Origin: Gordonibacter urolithinfaciens
GTDB taxonomy: Bacteria; Actinomycetota; Coriobacteriia; Coriobacteriales; Eggerthellaceae
Assembly (NCBI RefSeq): GCF_900199375.1
Contig: NZ_LT900217.1
Span: 744,001-808,000 of the forward strand
DNA length: 64,000 nucleotides
Direction of reading: 5' to 3'
Positions 11,229 through 19,878 of the stretch are shown here, one piece after another. Each line of letters starts with the position of its first letter. The first letter of the stretch is position 1. Under the pieces are notes generated by a model that saw only the letters and a list, made by a program, of their open reading frames with translations, searched no databases and was not told the DNA's origin. The translations under genes were made by a program, and so were the position numbers.

Positions 11229-11588
11229 TTAGAGCTGGAACAGGACCATCGGGCGGTCGAACTCCGCCATCTTGGCCTGCATCTCCTCGAGCGTGCCGTA
11301 GTACATGGACGCGGACTCCTCGACCTGGACGGCCAGGGGACGCTGGCCGGCCTTGTCGCCGCCGGTGCCCCAGTGCTCGGAGAAGATCGACGTCGGGCAC
11401 GGGATGTAGAACCACTCCCACGCGTCGCCGTCGGAACCCTCGCCCTTGCGGAACGGGCCGACCTCGACCTCTTTGATGCCGAACTGGTCGAGCGGGAGGC
11501 CCAGCTCTTCCTTGCAGGCGATCTCTGCGGCATGGTTGCCGGAGAAGTAGGTGTAATCAACGAGCAAAGCGTATTTCTGGTCTGCCAT
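11229..11588 (-). CDS. Degenerate ferredoxin-like small subunit of a molybdoenzyme
   Basis: The 119-residue protein follows the layout of the Fe-S electron-transfer subunits of DMSO-reductase-family enzymes: KYALLVDYTY, then the first cluster loop, KEELGLPLDQFGIK, a second cluster region near IPCPTS, and a closing MVLFQL. The cluster cysteines are almost gone. The first loop reads YFSGNHAAEIACKEE where CTGCHACEVAC is expected, the second reads PCPTSIFSEHW, and the third region (RPLAVQVEESASMYYGTLEE) has none. Only Cys25 and Cys64 remain. It begins 20 bases after the large-subunit stop, so the two are surely co-made. It probably binds the large subunit without carrying electrons. Confidence 0.75.
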   Translation of the reverse strand: MADQKYALLVDYTYFSGNHAAEIACKEELGLPLDQFGIKEVEVGPFRKGEGSDGDAWEWFYIPCPTSIFSEHWGTGGDKAGQRPLAVQVEESASMYYGTLEEMQAKMAEFDRPMVLFQL

Positions 11589-11608: not shown

Positions 11609-13921
11609 TTAGTCTTGGTCCAGGCTACGGACGCGGCGGACGTTGCACATGACACCCTTGTACGGGGCGCCGAAACCGAGCTTGCCAACGTTGAAGTGCG
11701 GCACCAGGCTGTTGAAGTTGGACTTCCACACGCCGAACAGGTTGGGCTCCTCGCCGTCCTGCTCGGGGAACCACCAGCCGTGCGCGCAGTTCAGGATGCC
11801 GGGCTTCATGACCGGGGTGACCTCGGCCTTGAAGCGGGCCTCGCCGAACATGTTGTACACCTCGCACCAGTCGCCGTCGGTGATGCCGTACTCGGCAGCC
11901 GTCTCCGGGTTGATCTGGACCCACGGCCACGGATCGATCTGGCGCAGCGAGGGCACGTGGCGATGCTCGGAGTGGAACGAGCTGTAGCGGCGCGAGCCGG
12001 ACGTGGTGATCAGCGGGTACTGACCGGCGAAGTCGGGCTTGCTGATGGGGCTGTAGTTCGGCTCCTCGTAGTAGGGCAGCGGATCCTCGCCCCAGGATTC
12101 GTACAGGATCGAGTAGGCTTCGATCTGGCCCGTGATGGTGTTGAAGCCGGGCTCGCCGTCGAAGCGGAGCAGGCCCTTCTCGTACTTCTCGTACTCGAAG
12201 CCATGGGCGCCGGGCTGGTAGAGACCCTCCTCGCGGAACTGGTTCCAGTCCATGCCGAGCTCCTTCAGCTGGTCGCTGTAGAAGTCCTCCACGGCAACCG
12301 CCAAGGCGTCGAGGTCGAGGGACTTGCCGTCGGCCGGCTTGTACCACGGCCACCAGGACGGGTTGAGGCGCTGGCCGAACATGAGGCAGATCTCCACGTC
12401 GGACTTGCACTCGCCCACCTGCAGGGCCTTGTTCATGGGGCCCATGAACACGGTGTTGCGGCCGTAGTGCGTGAGCACGATGCCGTTGTGCTCGGCCCAC
12501 GTGGCCATCGGCAGGAAGTAGTCGCCCACGGCCATGGCCGTCGGGGTCATGGTCAGGTCCTGGACCACGACGAACTCGAGCTTCTGCAGGGCCTTGTGCC
12601 AACGCTTAGGCTGCGCGGAGCACGTCGGGGTGAGGAAGTTGGAGCTGTTGAACCAACCCATCTTCAGGGCGTAGGGCTGGTCGGTCTCCATGGTGTTCAG
12701 CGTCTCGTCGGGCTGGGTGGTAGCCATGCCGGTGGACAGGCCGGGCCACGCCGCCGCGCCGATGCGCTTCGACCACACCTCGTCGGCCATGGCGCCGCGC
12801 TGCTCCATGCGCCACTTGCCGAGCAGGGCCGACGGAGGACCGAGGGTCAGGCCGCCGGGACGGTCGATGGAGCCGGCGAGGGCAGCCAGGACGATGAACG
12901 CCTGGGACAGCTGCACGCCGTTCTTGTTCTGGTCGAACGCGAGGCCCCACGCCCAGCCGATCGGGCGCTCGGTGCCGATGATGTGCGCGACGCGCTTGAT
13001 GTCCTCGGCGTCGACGCCGGTGATCTCGGCAACCTTGTCGACGGGGTACTCGGCCGCGCGGGCCTTCATGTCGTCGAGGCCGTAGATCCACTTTTCGGCG
13101 AACTCCTGGTCGTACTCGCCGTTCTCGAACATGAGGTTCATGATGGCGAGGGCCAGGGCCGTGTCGGTCTGCGGGCGGACCTGCAGGTTGATGTTGCCGT
13201 CGTGCGCGCCCACCCACGTGATGCGGGGGTCGATGGAGATGATCTTAGTGCCAAGCTTCATCAGGTCGACGAGGCAGTGGCCGAAGAAGCCGTCACCGTT
13301 GGAGGGCAGGGGCTCCTTGCCCCAGACCACGATCCACTTCGGCACGGTGTAGCGCGGGTCCTGGTAGCTGCCCGGCAGGTGGCCGGCGTAGTCGAGCTCG
13401 GGGTAGCCGGCGCCCAGCACGTAGTCGGAGATGGAGCAACGCGGGCCGTAGCAGGACCAACCGGACTGCGTGTAGCAGCAGTTGGGCGACTGCAGCACCG
13501 AGAACGTCAGCGCATAGTAGAAGATGCAAGCCTCGCGGCCGGTGCCGCCGAAGACCACGATGGACTCGGGGCCGTAGGTGTTCTGGAAGTAGCGAACCTT
13601 GTCGCAGATGGTGTCCAGAGCCTCGTCCCACGTGGTCTGAACCCACTTGTCCTTGCCGCGGTCCTCCGGGTTACGCTTCATCGGGTGGATGATGCGGGAA
13701 GGCGCGTAGGTGTACTCGCGCAGCGCGAGGTTCATCGCGTTCACGCGGCCCGTGGTGATGGGGTTGTCGTCGTCGCCCTCGATGCGGACGAGCTCGCCGT
13801 CCTTCGTGACAACCTTGACGCCGTATCCCACCGGGTGGCTTCCCGGAGGCGACCACGTGTTGCTGCGGGTTACGACAGTCCCGTCTTCCATCACGGTTTG
13901 CCACTGTTTACCGTATGCCAT
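11609..13921 (-). CDS. Molybdopterin oxidoreductase-family catalytic subunit lacking the N-terminal Fe-S motif
   Basis: The 770-residue protein has the DMSO-reductase-family course: VTKDGELVRIEGDDDNP (about 38-54), WDEALDTICDKVRYF, the pterin-binding segments KIISIDPRITWVGAHDG and WGLAFDQNKNGVQLS, and a C-terminal molydopterin-dinucleotide-binding domain (LITTSGSRRYSSFHSEHRH onward). The first cysteine is residue 106, so the usual CX2CX3C cluster is absent; the position normally reading GRxCxKG is GRVNAMN. Molybdenum-ligand candidates lie in YTQSGWSCYGPRCS (about 150-163). There is no Tat or Sec signal, so it acts in the cytoplasm. Relatives in Eggerthellaceae act on phenolic compounds; pyrogallol transhydroxylase also lacks the cluster in its large subunit. 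Substrate unknown. Confidence 0.88.
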   Translation of the reverse strand: MAYGKQWQTVMEDGTVVTRSNTWSPPGSHPVGYGVKVVTKDGELVRIEGDDDNPITTGRVNAMNLALREYTYAPSRIIHPMKRNPEDRGKDKWVQTTWDEALDTICDKVRYFQNTYGPESIVVFGGTGREACIFYYALTFSVLQSPNCCYTQSGWSCYGPRCSISDYVLGAGYPELDYAGHLPGSYQDPRYTVPKWIVVWGKEPLPSNGDGFFGHCLVDLMKLGTKIISIDPRITWVGAHDGNINLQVRPQTDTALALAIMNLMFENGEYDQEFAEKWIYGLDDMKARAAEYPVDKVAEITGVDAEDIKRVAHIIGTERPIGWAWGLAFDQNKNGVQLSQAFIVLAALAGSIDRPGGLTLGPPSALLGKWRMEQRGAMADEVWSKRIGAAAWPGLSTGMATTQPDETLNTMETDQPYALKMGWFNSSNFLTPTCSAQPKRWHKALQKLEFVVVQDLTMTPTAMAVGDYFLPMATWAEHNGIVLTHYGRNTVFMGPMNKALQVGECKSDVEICLMFGQRLNPSWWPWYKPADGKSLDLDALAVAVEDFYSDQLKELGMDWNQFREEGLYQPGAHGFEYEKYEKGLLRFDGEPGFNTITGQIEAYSILYESWGEDPLPYYEEPNYSPISKPDFAGQYPLITTSGSRRYSSFHSEHRHVPSLRQIDPWPWVQINPETAAEYGITDGDWCEVYNMFGEARFKAEVTPVMKPGILNCAHGWWFPEQDGEEPNLFGVWKSNFNSLVPHFNVGKLGFGAPYKGVMCNVRRVRSLDQD

Positions 13922-14081: not shown

Positions 14082-14333
14082 TTACGCGGTGGGAGGCTTG
14101 GGAGCGCCGGGGGCCGCGGGTGCCTTCGGGGCGCCGGGAGCTGCGGGGGCCGCGGGGGCACCGGGAGCCGCGTTCGGCAGCGGCTTCTCACCGTTGATGT
14201 ACGGCGTGAAGTCAGCCTTGCAGAACGGGCATGCCTTCAACGTAACGCCGGCCATCATCTGGATGGTCTTGCCGCACTCGGGGCACTTGTTCATGCCGCC
14301 GCTCGCACCTGCATCTGCTGGTCTGAAGCACAT
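14082..14333 (-). CDS. Small Cys-rich protein leading the molybdoenzyme operon
   Basis: The 83-residue protein starts MCFRPADAGASGGMNKCPEC and has a four-cysteine zinc ribbon (CPECG ... CPFCKADF) followed by a low-complexity tail of Ala-Pro-Gly repeats (about residues 55-83). GGAGGATTCC precedes the ATG. It is the first gene of the operon, 160 bases before the large subunit. Similar small Cys-rich proteins often stand next to molybdoenzymes in Eggerthellaceae. A role in maturation or metal delivery is possible but not shown. An internal Met at residue 14 is an alternative start. Confidence 0.7.
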   Translation of the reverse strand: MCFRPADAGASGGMNKCPECGKTIQMMAGVTLKACPFCKADFTPYINGEKPLPNAAPGAPAAPAAPGAPKAPAAPGAPKPPTA

Positions 14334-14701
14334 AGGGGAATCCTCCGTCTCATTTCTTCGGCCGGCTCGGGCGGCGCATCGCGCCGTCTTGCTGCCAACC
14401 CCTTGCCATAATGTTCGTCAGCGAAAGCCTGACGGGAAACAGCTTAGTTGCCTGGGCGGATGGGGCATCGAATCACGGGGACAATTTTGAGGATCATACC
14501 ATCGTCCCCGGAGGTTGATTTTCGTCAACCCGGTGGGTTACTGTTTGTTATTTTACCTGTTCAAAGGCCATTTTTAGACTTTCGTCACCAAAGCGCTCAA
14601 ACCCCGACGAAGCCCCTGAAAACAGCCCCGAGCGCCCTGCGCCAAGCACCCCTGCGCTATAATCGAAGCAAGCGAAAACGCGCCTTTTAAGGGGGATTTC
14701 T
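14334..14701. other. Divergent intergenic region with shared motif
   Basis: This 368-base gap separates the operon leader gene (-) from a hypothetical gene (+). It holds an IR GGTTGA-TTTTCG-TCAACC (14513-14530), a - strand TATGAT (14493-14498) as a possible -10 for the operon, and a + strand TATAAT (14658-14663) 39 bases before the TTG start of the + gene. Confidence 0.5.
14500..14522. promoter_or_regulatory. Candidate regulator site shared with the MFS/LuxR region
   Basis: The 23 bases CATCGTCCC-CGG-AGGTTGATTTT differ at only two positions from 17807-17829. On the - strand it lies directly upstream of TATGAT, covering the -35 region of the operon promoter, where an activator would be expected to bind. 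Confidence 0.55.
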
Positions 14702-15295
14702 TTGAAGAACAACAAGGTGTACTTTCCGGTGGACGCCATCGCGCGCCACGAGGACTTCGACGTGTGGTACGAGGACGGCGACGTGTTCCTGAGCCTCAAG
14801 GGAGCCTGGTCGGGCGAACGCGACCGGGTGGCCATCTTCGGCCGCATGGGCGGAGAGATGGGCTCCATCAAGCCCGATGCGAAGGCGCTCACCTACTACC
14901 TGAAGCTGGAGCGATGGGAGTACGTGTTCCACACGCTGCACCTGTTCGAGCACTACTACGTCAACGGGATGAAGTGGCAGATCGACGGCAGCCTGAGCAA
15001 CCCGCCCTTCGACTTCGTGGACGAGGAGGACGGCCGCAAGGAGGTGCACGTGCAGGTGGTGGACTTCAAGAACCGCGGAGCGTGCTACGAGATACGGGTG
15101 CGCGACGTGGCCAAGCTGCGCATCGCCACGGCGGCCGTCATCGCCATGGGCATCAAGGAGGAGTACAAGGGCCTGAGCGAGGGCCTCAAGAACCCGGGCG
15201 CCACCAAGCTCGAGAAGGCGAAGAACTGGCTGTTCTCGGGCAAGGGCTACACCTACGAGGAGCTGCTGGCGCAGGAGGAGGGGGGCAACGCCTAA
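14702..15295 (+). CDS. Hypothetical protein, possibly tubby/LURP-one-like fold
   Basis: The 197-residue protein starts at TTG after an AAGGGGGA ribosome site. It is rich in beta-strand-like alternations (VYFPVDAIARHEDFDVWYED, REVAIF-type turns, EYVFHTLHLFEHYY, MKWQIDGSLSN). These are followed by a hydrophobic helix (LRIATAAVIAMGIKEEY). That pattern resembles the tubby-like/LURP-one barrel with a C-terminal helix, but the match is only structural impression. It has no membrane signal apart from that helix. It stands between the molybdoenzyme operon and the convergent MFS gene, with its own TATAAT. Confidence 0.6.
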   Translation: MKNNKVYFPVDAIARHEDFDVWYEDGDVFLSLKGAWSGERDRVAIFGRMGGEMGSIKPDAKALTYYLKLERWEYVFHTLHLFEHYYVNGMKWQIDGSLSNPPFDFVDEEDGRKEVHVQVVDFKNRGACYEIRVRDVAKLRIATAAVIAMGIKEEYKGLSEGLKNPGATKLEKAKNWLFSGKGYTYEELLAQEEGGNA

Positions 15296-15326
15296 GGGCT
15301 GCAGCCTTTCCCGCACCGAGCACCAT

Positions 15327-15363
15327 GAGAAAGGGCCGGAACCCGCAGGTTCCGGCCCTTCTC
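15327..15363. terminator. Bidirectional terminator
   Basis: Arms GAGAAAGGGCCGGAACC and GGTTCCGGCCCTTCTC pair with one bulged A around a CGCA loop. It lies between the convergent hypothetical gene and the MFS carrier and could serve both. Confidence 0.7.
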
Positions 15364-15399
15364 GTTCAACGCGCGTATGCGCGGCAGGTCAAAGAGCGC

Positions 15400-17127
15400 T
15401 TAAGCCTTCGTGGAGGCCTCGTCGCCCAGGGAAGCGGAGGCCTTGGCGGCCTTGTTCTTGGCGAGCTGCGCGCCGCCGAACACGAAGAAGTACACGAACG
15501 GGAGCAGCAGGCCGATTGCCATGAGCGGCAGGGCGTAGGGCTGCTTCGCCCAGTTCGGCACGATGAGCGGGCAGGCGATGCAGAGCACGGCCAGGATGGC
15601 CACGATCACCAGCATGATGATGAAGCGCATGTTGCCGTCGCGCTCGGAGGCGCCGAGCTTCTCCTCCTCGGCCGCCAGCTGGTCCATGGTCTTGCCAGCC
15701 GTCTCTTTCACGAACAGCACGGTGCAGACGAAGCCCAGGGCGAACGGCACGATGAGCACGAGCACGACCGTCGACCAGTTCGTGGCGCCGGTGGCCGTCT
15801 GGAAGAACGCCATGCCGGCGATGCCGCCGAGCACGATGGAGGAGGCGGAGCCGCCGAAGCGGGCGAACGCCTGGCACCAGGACGTGCCGGTGTTGCGAAT
15901 GGCCGTGGGATAGCTCTCGGGCATGAGGGGCTGGACGGCCGTGATGGCGTAGTTCAGCGCGAAGCCGAACAGCAGCATGAGGGCGATGCACAGGCCCATG
16001 TTGTTCGGGGCCACGAAGATGGAGCACAGGACGATGGCCACGATGCAGAAGAGCCAGGAGAACGCCAGGTTGCGCTTGCGGCCCACCTTGTCGGACACGA
16101 AGCCCACGGCGATGTTCGAGGCGATGGCCGCCACGTTGTTCCACGTCTGGAGGGCGACCGAGTCGGCCTGCGAGTAGCCCAGGCCCACGAACCACGTGGG
16201 GATCCAGGCGTTCATGCCGTACACGCAGAACTGGCCCACGAAGTAGGCGGCCCAGATAGCGCAGGTCGCCACGATGAACTTGCTGGAGAACAGCACGCTC
16301 GGGCCCGTCTTGGCCGGCTTCGGCGGCACGATGAGCAGGGCGGGGTCGTACTCATGGGACGTGTGGCGCGTGGCCTGCTCGATCTCGGTCAGGCGCTTGC
16401 AGGCCATGGCCTTGTTGCCGGAGTTGGCGTACCAGTGCGGCGTCTCGTGCATGGCGAAGATGAGCACGATGCCGTAGAGCAGCGGGATGGCGCCGATCAG
16501 GTAGCACAGACGCCAGTTGGCGTACATCGTGGCGGTGCCGCCGTCCGCGAGCGTGTAGGTCACCTGGTTCGTGAAGTCGCCCAGCAGCGGCGTGGCCGCG
16601 TTGCAGATGGGGTTGGCGATGAGGCCCGCGAGCACCCAGCCCACGACCATGAACGCCATGCCGAACGTCACGAAGATGCCGCGCTGCTTGGAGGGCATGC
16701 TCTCGGAGAACACCGTCGTCACAACGGGGATGCAGGAGCCCACGCCGAAGCCGGCGATCAGGCGGAACGCGGCGAAGAACGCCAGGTCGTTCGCGAACGC
16801 CTGCGGCAGCGTGAACAGGCCGTAGAACATGACGGCCGCGATCAGCGTCTTCTTGCGGCCGATCTTGTCGGACATGATGCCGCCGAACGCGCCGCCGAGC
16901 ACCATGCCCAGCAGGCCCCACGTGGTCAGCGAGCCCATGAGCGCGCCCGGGTTCGCGTTGTCGGGCCAGAACGTATGGGCCACGAACAGGTTGGTCGAAT
17001 TGACGATCATGAAGTCGTAGCCGTCGAAGATCATGGCAAAGGCCAGCAGCACGAACACGACCCACGTGTGCTTGCTGATGCCGATAGAGTCGATGACTTC
17101 CGAGACCGTGAACTCTTTTTTATCCAT
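15400..17127 (-). CDS. MFS transporter, aromatic acid/H+ symporter-like
   Basis: The 575-residue membrane protein has the DGYDFMIVN motif in helix 1 (about residues 35-43) that marks the AAHS family of aromatic acid:proton symporters. It also has the loop 2-3 motif GGIMSDKIGRKKT and its second-half copy VGFVSDKVGRKRN. After the twelve standard helices two further hydrophobic segments follow (IIMLVIVAILAVLCIACPLIV and LPLMAIGLLLPFVYFFVF), so it has about fourteen. It is probably a carrier of a small aromatic or organic acid. GGAGGG precedes the ATG. Near a molybdoenzyme and a LuxR regulator it may import that enzyme's substrate. Confidence 0.85.
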   Translation of the reverse strand: MDKKEFTVSEVIDSIGISKHTWVVFVLLAFAMIFDGYDFMIVNSTNLFVAHTFWPDNANPGALMGSLTTWGLLGMVLGGAFGGIMSDKIGRKKTLIAAVMFYGLFTLPQAFANDLAFFAAFRLIAGFGVGSCIPVVTTVFSESMPSKQRGIFVTFGMAFMVVGWVLAGLIANPICNAATPLLGDFTNQVTYTLADGGTATMYANWRLCYLIGAIPLLYGIVLIFAMHETPHWYANSGNKAMACKRLTEIEQATRHTSHEYDPALLIVPPKPAKTGPSVLFSSKFIVATCAIWAAYFVGQFCVYGMNAWIPTWFVGLGYSQADSVALQTWNNVAAIASNIAVGFVSDKVGRKRNLAFSWLFCIVAIVLCSIFVAPNNMGLCIALMLLFGFALNYAITAVQPLMPESYPTAIRNTGTSWCQAFARFGGSASSIVLGGIAGMAFFQTATGATNWSTVVLVLIVPFALGFVCTVLFVKETAGKTMDQLAAEEEKLGASERDGNMRFIIMLVIVAILAVLCIACPLIVPNWAKQPYALPLMAIGLLLPFVYFFVFGGAQLAKNKAAKASASLGDEASTKA

Positions 17128-17896
17128 CAGTCCCTCCTTTTGAGGTAACTCGTATGATAAGGAACCGGGTCGCCCGCCCCCGCTCGAAGCGGGTGCGTGC
17201 GCCTCCGGCGCTTAACTCTTCCCCTTTGCACAGTGGCAAGACCGGAACCGCAACGTGCCTTCAGGAAATTACGGACGCTTCAGTATTGCTTGAATAACCG
17301 ACGCTTCCGTAGTTTCGACCGCCGTCCCTCAACGGCGTTCGCAACCCGCCTACAAGACCGTGCCGTCTCCAGAAGAAACGACTGCGCGCACCCTCCTTCC
17401 CCGATTCTCTTGCCTGATCGCGTTATTTCCTTTTGCGCAGGAGACCGAAACGGCCGTGAGCATGCAAAAGAAATATCCAAGTCGAAGGGTACGAAACACG
17501 GGGCGAGCGGTCATCCTCTCGCGGGTACGCTTTACCGACCGGGCATCGACCCCTGGGATCGATTTATCGGACGCGCCTTTTCAGGTCGTTTCGCGCAGGC
17601 CCGGGCTGGCCGGACGGCCGAGGGCCGGGCGGGCGCAGGGCGCAGGACTGTGCAGACACCGGCGGGCGCTGGAGGGCGGTCGGTGGGCCGTCGCCCCGAC
17701 CTAGGCCGATCGGCAGCGCAAGCCTCCCCGCCTGCAGCTATCCCGCGCGCGGGCCGGCCCAATCCTTGCAGGACGGCCGCGCCCCTTACGGCGCCGCACG
17801 GGGAAGCATCGTCCCGAGAGGTTGATTTTTATCGTCCCTACGGCATAGACAACCCAATATCCCCAGATAAGGGTGGTAGCCACGCGATCGCGTCAT
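17128..17896. other. Long divergent intergenic region, MFS/LuxR
   Basis: About 770 bases upstream of the two divergent genes without a credible gene; the long open frame across it has no start with a ribosome site and no family resemblance. It contains the 23-bp motif at 17807-17829 and, near 17275-17320, the similar tracts GGACGCTTCAGT and CGACGCTTCCGT. It is less GC-rich around 17210-17480 than the flanks. Confidence 0.5.
17807..17829. promoter_or_regulatory. Second copy of the shared 23-bp motif
   Basis: CATCGTCCC-GAG-AGGTTGATTTT matches 14500-14522 at 21 of 23 positions. It lies 68 bases before the LuxR -35 box and about 680 bases from the MFS start. Confidence 0.55.
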
Positions 17897-17925
17897 TTGA
17901 ACAGAACCGCGGAAACGTTTATAGT
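17897..17925 (+). promoter_or_regulatory. Promoter of the LuxR-type regulator
   Basis: TTGAAC (17897-17902), 17 bases, TATAGT (17920-17925): good -35 and -10 at ideal spacing. The leader to the ATG would be about 123 bases. Confidence 0.65.
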
Positions 17926-18054: not shown

Positions 18055-19878
18055 ATGGCCATCAACCTCCCGCGCATCAGCATCACCGTAGACGACCACC
18101 GAGGCATGGGGACGCAGGGAGAGCTCAACATCCTGTCCTTGGGCTTCGGCATACACCAGGCATGGATCTACGCTGCCATGTTCGGAACGAACTCCATCTT
18201 CCAGATCCCCTCGCCCGAGGGGTTCTTCGGCCAGTCGCACTCCTTCGTATCGTATGTTTTCCTCATCTCCATCGTGGTGTTCGGGCTGTCGCTTCTGTTC
18301 GCCGCCATAACCGACCAGAAACTCCTCAAGCTCTACACCGCCAAGCGCGTGCTGCTCGGAGCGGGTATCCTCACCTCGGCGGGCACGTTCGCCGTGTTCG
18401 CCGCCACGCTGCCCGGGACGCTGGGCATAGCGGCCACCGTGTTCGCCGGTGTGTCCACGGGCATCGGATCGGCCTTGCTGCTGCTGTTCTGGGGCACCGC
18501 CTATTCGCGCCACGGCGCCGCCACCATCGTCATGAACACGGCCGTGGCCATCGTCATAGCCGTGGCCATCTACTCCATCGCGCTCCATATGGTGCCCGCG
18601 CCCTACTCGGGCGTGCTCACCGCCTGCCTGCCGCTGCTGGAGCTGCCCATTTTGTGGCACCTCACGCCGGTGAGCTATGCCGTGCGCCACGCCATACCCA
18701 TCTTCAACCCGCTGCCGGTGCACAAAGGGCCGTTCTGCCTGCGCTTCGCGCTCCCAGTGTTGCTGTTCGGCTTCGCGCTGGGCGCGCTCCGCTCGCTGTC
18801 CACGCAGGTCATCTTGCCGTCGTCCGACCTCACCACGCAGCTGCTGGCGCTGTTCGCCGGCGGCGCGGCCACCGTGCTGCTGTTGGTCACCACGTTCTCC
18901 ATCGACAAGCGCAGCCACTGGGATTTCCTGTTCCGGCCGCTTGTACCGTTCATCGCCATCACGCTGTTCTTCCTGCCGTCCCTCGCGTTGGACAACTCCA
19001 TGATCGCGGCACTCGTGCTGCTCACCGGCTACATGTGCTTCGAGGCGCTCATGTGGGTGTTCTTCGGCGAGCTGTCGCAGGAGTTCCGCCTGTCGCCCAT
19101 CTTCGTGTTCGGCATCGGGCGCGGCTGCCTGGCCCTGGGCTCGATAGCCGGGTCGCTGTCGATGGCCGACCTCACGTTCCTGTCGTCTCTCACGCCGTTC
19201 GGCGAGGCCGGTGGCGCCGTGCTCATCATGATGGCCATGGTGGTGGCGTACGCGCTGCTGCCTCGCGTACGCGACATCAAGCGCATCGTGGTGAAGGGCG
19301 GACGCGATTTCGACGCCATAGAGTCCTTCAACCATCAGATAGAGAGGGTTGTCTGGGCTTCGCGCCGGGCAAGCACGGAGGCATCCGACGACAGCGCCGA
19401 GATGGAGGCTTTGCCGATGCCCACGCCCGGAACGCTCTTCGGCATGGACTCCGTGGCGGCCGAGACGCCGTCAGACCTTCCCTCTTACGGCTCGGCCGGC
19501 ACTCCCGGCTGGCGCGCCGCCAGCATAGGAAGCGCGACGCCGTCCAAGCTGGCGGCGGACACCCAGCTGGCCAAGGAACCGGCGAAAGAGGCGGTCAAGG
19601 ATCCGGACGCGGCCTCGTCGGAGGCCGAGCGCTCGCGCAAGAGCGGGCGGTTCCGCTCGCAATGCGAGGTCATCGCCGACCGCTACCTGCTGTCGCGCCG
19701 CGAGGCCGAGGTCATGTTCCTGCTGGCCAAGGGCCACAACGCCGCCTACATCCAGGACAAGCTGTGCATCTCGAAGAGTACGGCCAAGACGCACATCAGC
19801 CATATCTACCGCAAGCTGGACATCCACAACCAGCAGGAGCTGCTGTCCATGGTGGAGGAGGCGCGCGACGAGCTTTAG
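18055..19878 (+). CDS. Membrane-bound LuxR-family regulator
   Basis: The 607-residue protein has about twelve hydrophobic segments over residues 20-430 (for example VFLISIVVFGLSLLFAAI and LPVLLFGFALGALRSL). A charged, alanine-rich linker follows (about 430-530), and then a C-terminal LuxR helix-turn-helix: LSRREAEVMFLLAKGHNAAY, SKSTAKTHISHIYRKLDIH. Such membrane-sensor LuxR proteins are numerous in Eggerthellaceae and often regulate a neighbouring transporter or oxidoreductase, so the divergent MFS gene and the molybdoenzyme operon are natural targets. Start at 18055 follows GAGG; an ATG at 18016 is an alternative. Confidence 0.85.
   Translation: MAINLPRISITVDDHRGMGTQGELNILSLGFGIHQAWIYAAMFGTNSIFQIPSPEGFFGQSHSFVSYVFLISIVVFGLSLLFAAITDQKLLKLYTAKRVLLGAGILTSAGTFAVFAATLPGTLGIAATVFAGVSTGIGSALLLLFWGTAYSRHGAATIVMNTAVAIVIAVAIYSIALHMVPAPYSGVLTACLPLLELPILWHLTPVSYAVRHAIPIFNPLPVHKGPFCLRFALPVLLFGFALGALRSLSTQVILPSSDLTTQLLALFAGGAATVLLLVTTFSIDKRSHWDFLFRPLVPFIAITLFFLPSLALDNSMIAALVLLTGYMCFEALMWVFFGELSQEFRLSPIFVFGIGRGCLALGSIAGSLSMADLTFLSSLTPFGEAGGAVLIMMAMVVAYALLPRVRDIKRIVVKGGRDFDAIESFNHQIERVVWASRRASTEASDDSAEMEALPMPTPGTLFGMDSVAAETPSDLPSYGSAGTPGWRAASIGSATPSKLAADTQLAKEPAKEAVKDPDAASSEAERSRKSGRFRSQCEVIADRYLLSRREAEVMFLLAKGHNAAYIQDKLCISKSTAKTHISHIYRKLDIHNQQELLSMVEEARDEL

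Follow-up and report, generated by a model that had tools for sequence, protein, structure and literature searches.

A predicted operator linking a membrane LuxR regulator to the hydrocaffeate dehydroxylase operon of Gordonibacter urolithinfaciens

Which DNA site does a membrane LuxR regulator use, and which genes does it control from there? The question is raised by 64,000 nucleotides of Gordonibacter urolithinfaciens (NCBI RefSeq assembly GCF_900199375.1, contig NZ_LT900217.1, positions 744,001 to 808,000), hereafter the window, in which two nearly identical 23-mers lie before a molybdoenzyme operon and before a gene for a membrane LuxR protein. An earlier note on this DNA had suggested that the LuxR protein controls the enzyme, a major facilitator superfamily (MFS) carrier and itself through this motif. 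The two copies and the genes concerned are listed here.

14500..14522, + strand: S1, predicted main operator copy in the enzyme promoter (dyad 14501-14519, centre 14510), from uniqueness, conservation and matrix score
17807..17829, + strand: S1 copy in the MFS/luxR gap (centre 17817), on the same three grounds
11609..13921, - strand: molybdoenzyme, 770 aa, matching the catalytic subunit of Gp Hcdh (Unk-9)
15400..17127, - strand: MFS carrier; nearest NCBIfam family aromatic acid/H+ symport, below its cut-off
18055..19878, + strand: membrane LuxR regulator, 607 aa, with a C-terminal GerE domain and 10 hydrophobic segments

From comparison with related genomes, S1 is very probably the main operator of the adjacent membrane LuxR, a relative of HcdR, acting with a weaker copy, S0, on the hydrocaffeate dehydroxylase operon.

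Uniqueness and conservation of the 23-mer pair

The two 23-mers, CATCGTCCCCGGAGGTTGATTTT at 14500-14522 (+) and CATCGTCCCGAGAGGTTGATTTT at 17807-17829 (+), differ at 2 of 23 positions; positions, strand and differences were as the earlier note gave them, and the second copy does lie before the LuxR gene, between MFS and luxR. No match within 3 mismatches was obtained in 100 dinucleotide-preserving shuffles of the window. At the same tolerance the 3,294,868-bp genome contains these two 23-mers only, and a reversed control 23-mer had no genome match. The sharing is not due to chance, as had been claimed, nor is the motif scattered at random over the genome.

Thirty-three aligned sites gave an imperfect dyad, ATC-NN-CC-N5-GGTTGAT followed by TTT, which in some relatives is the perfect palindrome ATCAACC-N5-GGTTGAT. 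A weight matrix built from these sites scored the window 23-mers at 35.5 and 36.8; the only further window match scoring at least 8 was found at 17545-17563 (15.2). Around the other GerE genes of the genome, 37 stretches that partly overlap and total 594,497 bases gave no match of 12 or more. Exact matches of the degenerate form ATCNNCC-N5-GGNNGAT in this genome were the two known sites only. The same form was rejected as a universal LuxR operator, its one-mismatch matches in this genome numbering 69 (known two included) versus 42 for the reversed control.

A shorter pattern (22-mer) adds one weak genome match at 3 mismatches, G000:C1:1763851. This weak related site, TTCGTCCCCGTAGGCTGATTTT at G000:C1:1763851-1763872 (locus L057), has a different membrane LuxR gene about 4 kb away, and G. 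pamelaeae has a site similar to TTCGTCCCCGTAGGCTGATTTT.

The five closest complete loci, from four Gordonibacter and one Paraeggerthella, keep the gene order and both sites, enzyme identity being 99.6% in Gordonibacter pamelaeae 7-10-1-b and 96-98% in three other Gordonibacter. Further away the dyad is kept across Eggerthellaceae, so that conservation in orthologous regions, on which the earlier proposal depended, was found. The 22-mer within 3 mismatches was present in 8 of 60 relatives' genomes (own counted; reversed control 1), and the degenerate dyad within one mismatch in 50 of 138 family genomes (reversed control 4). Among the exact dyad matches listed, 21 of 24 adjoin an orthologue of the enzyme, the MFS carrier or the LuxR in the collected loci; in genomes G089 and G128 the match precedes the helix-turn-helix (HTH) of another LuxR gene by about 2 kb, and the one in G088 is on a 5.9-kb contig with no enzyme, MFS or LuxR orthologue. 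The one-mismatch matches examined were mainly those inside the collected loci.

Co-occurrence of the site with the regulator

If S1 belongs to this LuxR, it should be found where the LuxR is found. Of the 138 genomes, 34 carry the enzyme with at least 78% identity, and 30 of these are informative once the contig-edge loci L115, L116 and L071 and genome G139 are set aside. The site was present in 23/23 enzyme-bearing genomes with this LuxR type, defined as an HTH at least 65% identical to that of the window (in G100 the LuxR is on another contig), and upstream of the enzyme in 0/7 of those with no such LuxR seen in the stretch. Two of these seven carry a LuxR whose HTH is at 49-55%. Locus L125 has one matrix match (12.0), which is inside the enzyme gene. 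In four genomes (L118, L122, L132, L133), as on the enzyme side of L111, the sites were found by the matrix only, with scores of 22.9 to 25.9; these five were excluded from matrix building. Fisher's exact test on 23/23 versus 0/7 gives about 5e-7 (by hand, with LuxR absence judged within the stretch only), a value that is too optimistic because the genomes are related.

The site also follows the other genes of the set. Lone MFS loci apart from LuxR keep it in both cases (2/2): Adlercreutzia faecimuris (G101, L147) and the metagenome-assembled genome G103 (L148) have the MFS orthologue at 84% and 83%, respectively, in stretches with neither LuxR nor enzyme, with the site some 390 bp before the gene. 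In loci that have LuxR and enzyme side by side in divergent orientation (e.g. G020, G068, G069, G109, G101), a single strong site lies between them, and this one site would suffice for both. The oriented listing comprises 13 enzyme-side, 7 divergent, 16 MFS/luxR and 2 lone MFS sites, L144:442, before a lone small open reading frame (ORF), being counted among the 13 and left out of the 12-promoter layout count given below. All listed sites share one orientation: taken in the direction that puts AAAATCAACC first, each points towards the enzyme or carrier gene, and luxR, if it adjoins, is on the opposite side. A one-mismatch dyad was also seen at 5397 of L145 (G066:C29:1-15000), beyond a uvrD-like gene, where relatives have luxR; no LuxR was found in that stretch.

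Could the pair be the remnant of a promoter duplication, or a mobile repeat, with no regulatory role? Duplication does occur, since two Slackia-type genomes carry the small CxxC ORF twice, the extra copy standing with a matching promoter ahead of the MFS gene (L111:7370-7531, L114:6839-7000). Yet S1 stays while its flanks diverge, the genome has two copies only, and no site is seen where the LuxR is missing. We regard this explanation as the least probable of those considered here.

Promoter layout

The operator reading was then compared with the promoters themselves, for which the following features are needed.

14466..14488, - strand: S0, weaker direct copy, 34 bp nearer the enzyme operon, centre at about -42 of the predicted start
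14523..14545, - strand: S2, weaker copy, 23 bp behind S1
14464..14469, - strand: predicted poor -35 GATGCC of the enzyme operon, from the 17-bp spacing to the -10
14441..14446, - strand: predicted -10 TAAGCT of the enzyme operon
17830..17852, - strand: S2-like copy adjoining the 17807 site
17545..17563, unstranded: weaker dyad on the MFS side, the 15.2 match
17897..17925, + strand: predicted luxR promoter TTGAAC-N17-TATAGT, -10 at +103 from S1
14082..14333, - strand: small ORF with a CxxC motif, the first gene reached from the enzyme-side operator
11229..11588, - strand: small partner subunit, adjoining the enzyme here and in relatives; no family match
14702..15295, + strand: 197-aa ORF on the opposite side of the enzyme-side operator; no family match

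The flanking copies S0 and S2 are additions to what the earlier note described. At 34 bp from S1, towards the target, S0 matched on average 12.9 of 23 positions in 12 enzyme promoters, for a background of 6.0 (sd 1.5), and 11.4/23 in the 7 divergent promoters (background 6.1). S2 averaged 10.3/23 in enzyme promoters and 9.25/23 in the 16 MFS/luxR regions, where the background was 5.7 (sd 0.9). A TANNNT hexamer at +63 to +65, counted from the S1 centre, was present in 12/12 enzyme, 7/7 divergent, 10/16 MFS/luxR and 2/2 lone MFS promoters, the next commonest offset accounting for 2, 3 and 3 only. In the enzyme promoters specifically it was at +64/65 in all 12, and we therefore adopted it as the -10. 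The hexamer TATGAT (14493-14498), which the earlier note had taken as the operon promoter with the 23-mer over its -35, was dropped in its favour: it is found at only 4 of the 13 listed enzyme-side sites, all in Gordonibacter.

With TAAGCT (14446-14441) and its poor -35, the centres of S0 and S1 would fall at about -42 and -76, respectively, from the predicted, not mapped, start. LuxR regulators of the NarL/FixJ type, which carry GerE domains, bind dyad operators and activate in the class II manner. The inverted-repeat site and a copy near -42 over the -35 resemble that arrangement; from the predicted start, S0 would fall near the class II position (about -41.5, over the -35). Unlike those regulators, the window LuxR is membrane-fixed, has no receiver domain that Pfam could find, and its sites are repeated at 34 and 23 bp.

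On the luxR side, the 15 MFS/luxR regions had a -10 at +102 to +105 in 7 cases and at +93 in one. In 4 of 7 divergent loci, the TTGATT of S1 forms a -35 placed 17 bp before a TATAAT directed to luxR. The conserved letters might on this account be a core promoter, with the right-arm TTGATT serving as -35, but this test detected a -10 so placed neither in the remaining 3 divergent loci nor in any of the 15 MFS/luxR regions, and the ATC-NN-CC arm is conserved as well. A core promoter is therefore very unlikely to explain the site.

A GC-rich block, 17564-17800, separates S1 from the MFS side in the window and in G. pamelaeae (where it is partly unsequenced), and is absent from two other Gordonibacter; the letters of the 17545-17563 dyad are identical in the window and in G. 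pamelaeae. The block was rejected as a repeat element, being single-copy with one weak 27-base genome match besides. We also noted a second conserved element, CC(A/T)G(A/G/T)(T/C), on the far side of S1 (window 14556-14561 and 17863-17868). Its distance from the S1 centre, measured to the element's first base, is 46 bp in 9/12 enzyme promoters, 45-46 bp in 11/15 MFS/luxR regions, 35 bp in 6/7 divergent loci and 22 bp in 4/7 Eggerthella-type luxR promoters.

Known systems, the sister operator and the wider family

The window enzyme and LuxR match Gp Hcdh (Unk-9) and Unk-9R, as described in the accessible part of PMC11585353: a 770-aa catalytic subunit, two subunits, a co-localised membrane LuxR and shared host genera. 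According to that text, the dehydroxylation of hydrocaffeic acid was established in two ways, with purified enzyme from G. pamelaeae and through a G. urolithinfaciens deletion, and unk-9 is induced more than 250-fold by hydrocaffeic acid in G. pamelaeae; the same part of the paper describes no operator or carrier link for Gp Hcdh/Unk-9R. The catalytic subunit starts MAYGKQWQ (by eye), has no twin-arginine signal and adjoins one small partner gene. Among Gordonibacter-type catechol dehydroxylases, a small subunit predicted to bind iron-sulfur (Fe-S) clusters is described for Dodh-like enzymes (accessible parts of PMC7028382 and PMC11887054). The window partner did not follow this expectation, having 2 Cys in 122 aa (mostly 2, up to 5, in relatives), and in 32/32 aligned relatives the catalytic subunit is free of Cys up to residue 72. 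Neither subunit therefore seems able to hold the usual 4Fe-4S clusters.

Pfam gave only GerE for the window LuxR (PF00196, residues 546-599, 49.7 bits), and the 10 hydrophobic segments come from a crude hydropathy count, not a dedicated transmembrane predictor. Its identity to the HcdR-like protein of genome G098 is 45% (61% similarity, pairwise), and that of the window enzyme to the Eggerthella lenta-type Hcdh-like enzyme 18% (29% similarity). G098 is probably E. lenta DSM 2243. In agreement with these values, published figures for Gordonibacter against E. lenta are 44/60% for the regulators and 17/29% for the enzymes (PMC11585353, accessible part). In E. lenta, as far as the accessible text of PMC9734109 (Dong 2022, on the 12-transmembrane LuxR family) goes, HcdR responds to hydrocaffeic acid and activates hcdh, deletion of hcdR abolishes hcdh induction, and hcdR is near, not next to, hcdh.

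The nearest LuxR in genome groups g32 and g13, both Eggerthella-type, has a sister operator, ATCATCC-N5-GGAT(G/T)ATTTT. Within one mismatch it occurs in exactly two copies in 7/7 Eggerthella-type genomes, and controls gave none. One copy is 130-161 bp before the start of the HcdR-like LuxR gene; the other precedes an Hcdh-like molybdoenzyme with an N-terminal twin-arginine stretch (by eye, L138 and L220). The distance between the copies is 5.1-7.1 kb in four g32 genomes and 110 and 121 kb in two of the g13 genomes; in the third g13 genome they lie on separate contigs. TANNNT is found at +62/63 in the enzyme promoters and TATNAT at +100/101 in the luxR promoters, 7/7 in each case. This two-site pattern fits the published hcdR/hcdh pair, and the likeness to the window extends to a membrane LuxR (45% identical) attached to hydrocaffeate dehydroxylase control, the operator before both genes, its orientation and a similar -10 spacing. 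The window differs in that the E. lenta enzyme is exported, three-subunit and 18% identical, that the operator centre is AT there and TT here, and that no MFS homologue was found in the Eggerthella-type stretch.

The recognition helices partly follow the operators. LuxRs of the GG-TT-GAT group have (I/V)S(K/R)STAKTHI(S/G/N), and those with the sister operator ISEGTAKTHIR (7/7). A strict helix/operator code was rejected, being contradicted by L111, L133 and four distant LuxR loci in which a GGTTGAT-type dyad, some 2 kb ahead of the HTH, goes with a SEAT or SEST helix. Because of these exceptions, the pairing is a tendency only.

Another transcription factor, global or a paralogous LuxR, might co-regulate the same genes via the site. 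The sites come from comparison, the four distant loci carry similar dyads, and the distal CCWGNY element, at a fixed distance in most classes, makes a second factor possible. Against it, the own genome holds two sites only, the site is absent from 7/7 enzyme loci without this LuxR type, and the g13 pairs, more than 100 kb apart or on separate contigs, join exactly the LuxR and the enzyme gene. We consider a different factor unlikely, though less so than the two alternatives above.

The 23/23 versus 0/7 distribution and the Eggerthella two-site pairs (7/7) make the link between LuxR and S1 well supported for the enzyme, and so this part of the earlier suggestion stands, by comparison. Hydrocaffeic acid would be sensed by the transmembrane part, activating the C-terminal HTH while it is still held at the membrane; the HTH would bind S1 plus the helper S0, which overlaps the poor -35 at about -42, and the bound LuxR would recruit RNA polymerase to the hydrocaffeate dehydroxylase operon. 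In many relatives the MFS carrier would be driven likewise, as site and -10 suggest (10/16 MFS/luxR, 2/2 lone MFS). Finally, self-activation is probably made possible by the copy that lies about 115 bp ahead of the predicted transcription start of luxR. Self-control is suggested by position, and in a relative there is a hint of it in the rise of FLAG-DadR after dopamine (PMC9734109, accessible part). The reading is weakest for self-control and, in this species, for control of the carrier.

Several observations weigh against it. At 17807 the window has lost both the S0 and the -10 that would face the carrier, and the carrier-directed -10 is missing also in five further MFS/luxR regions, G. pamelaeae included. 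No luxR -10 was found by the same test in 7/15 MFS/luxR regions. The L111 enzyme side and the L133 sites read GGATGAT despite a TT-type helix. Lastly, the other LuxR loci of the genome showed no general shared-pair rule. With a gene finder trained on known window genes, 31 membrane LuxR genes with at least 8 hydrophobic segments were found in this genome, and non-coding DNA upstream of each luxR was compared with the other non-coding DNA of its locus, with cross-locus controls. Own-locus and cross-locus means were 17.10 and 17.03, and a family rule was rejected. The window was the best of the 31 (20/22, 0/30 controls as high). Besides the window, L169 (G000:C1:704299-720299) has a 19/22 shared non-coding segment (0/30 controls), possibly a second operator pair; L175 also reached 19/22 (0/30 controls), with the impression of coding repetition.

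One regulator-operator cassette may have been coupled to two nearly unrelated hydrocaffeate dehydroxylases, the switch being kept and the enzyme swapped. It would serve a cytoplasmic two-subunit enzyme with an operator that also covers the importer in one case, and an exported three-subunit enzyme without importer in the other. Helix (S-K/R-S-T versus S-E-G-T) and operator centre (TT versus AT) would have drifted, with at least 2 exceptions. We think this likely, with confidence lowered by the helix/operator exceptions.

Three membrane LuxRs are known activators of enzymes that metabolise polyphenols or dopamine (PMC9734109, accessible part). No DNA target or operator for these regulators was found in the literature searched, which included the accessible parts of PMC9734109, PMC11585353 and PMC12771579 (supplements unread; subscription papers and preprints largely outside). 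We propose here an operator, its promoter layout, a two-site regulon in this genome and a helix/operator pairing. Membrane LuxRs are abundant in gut Coriobacteriia, and these proposals make a poorly understood regulator family directly testable. With g13 sites 110 or 121 kb apart or on different contigs, the reach of a membrane-anchored activator to separate loci becomes testable as well.

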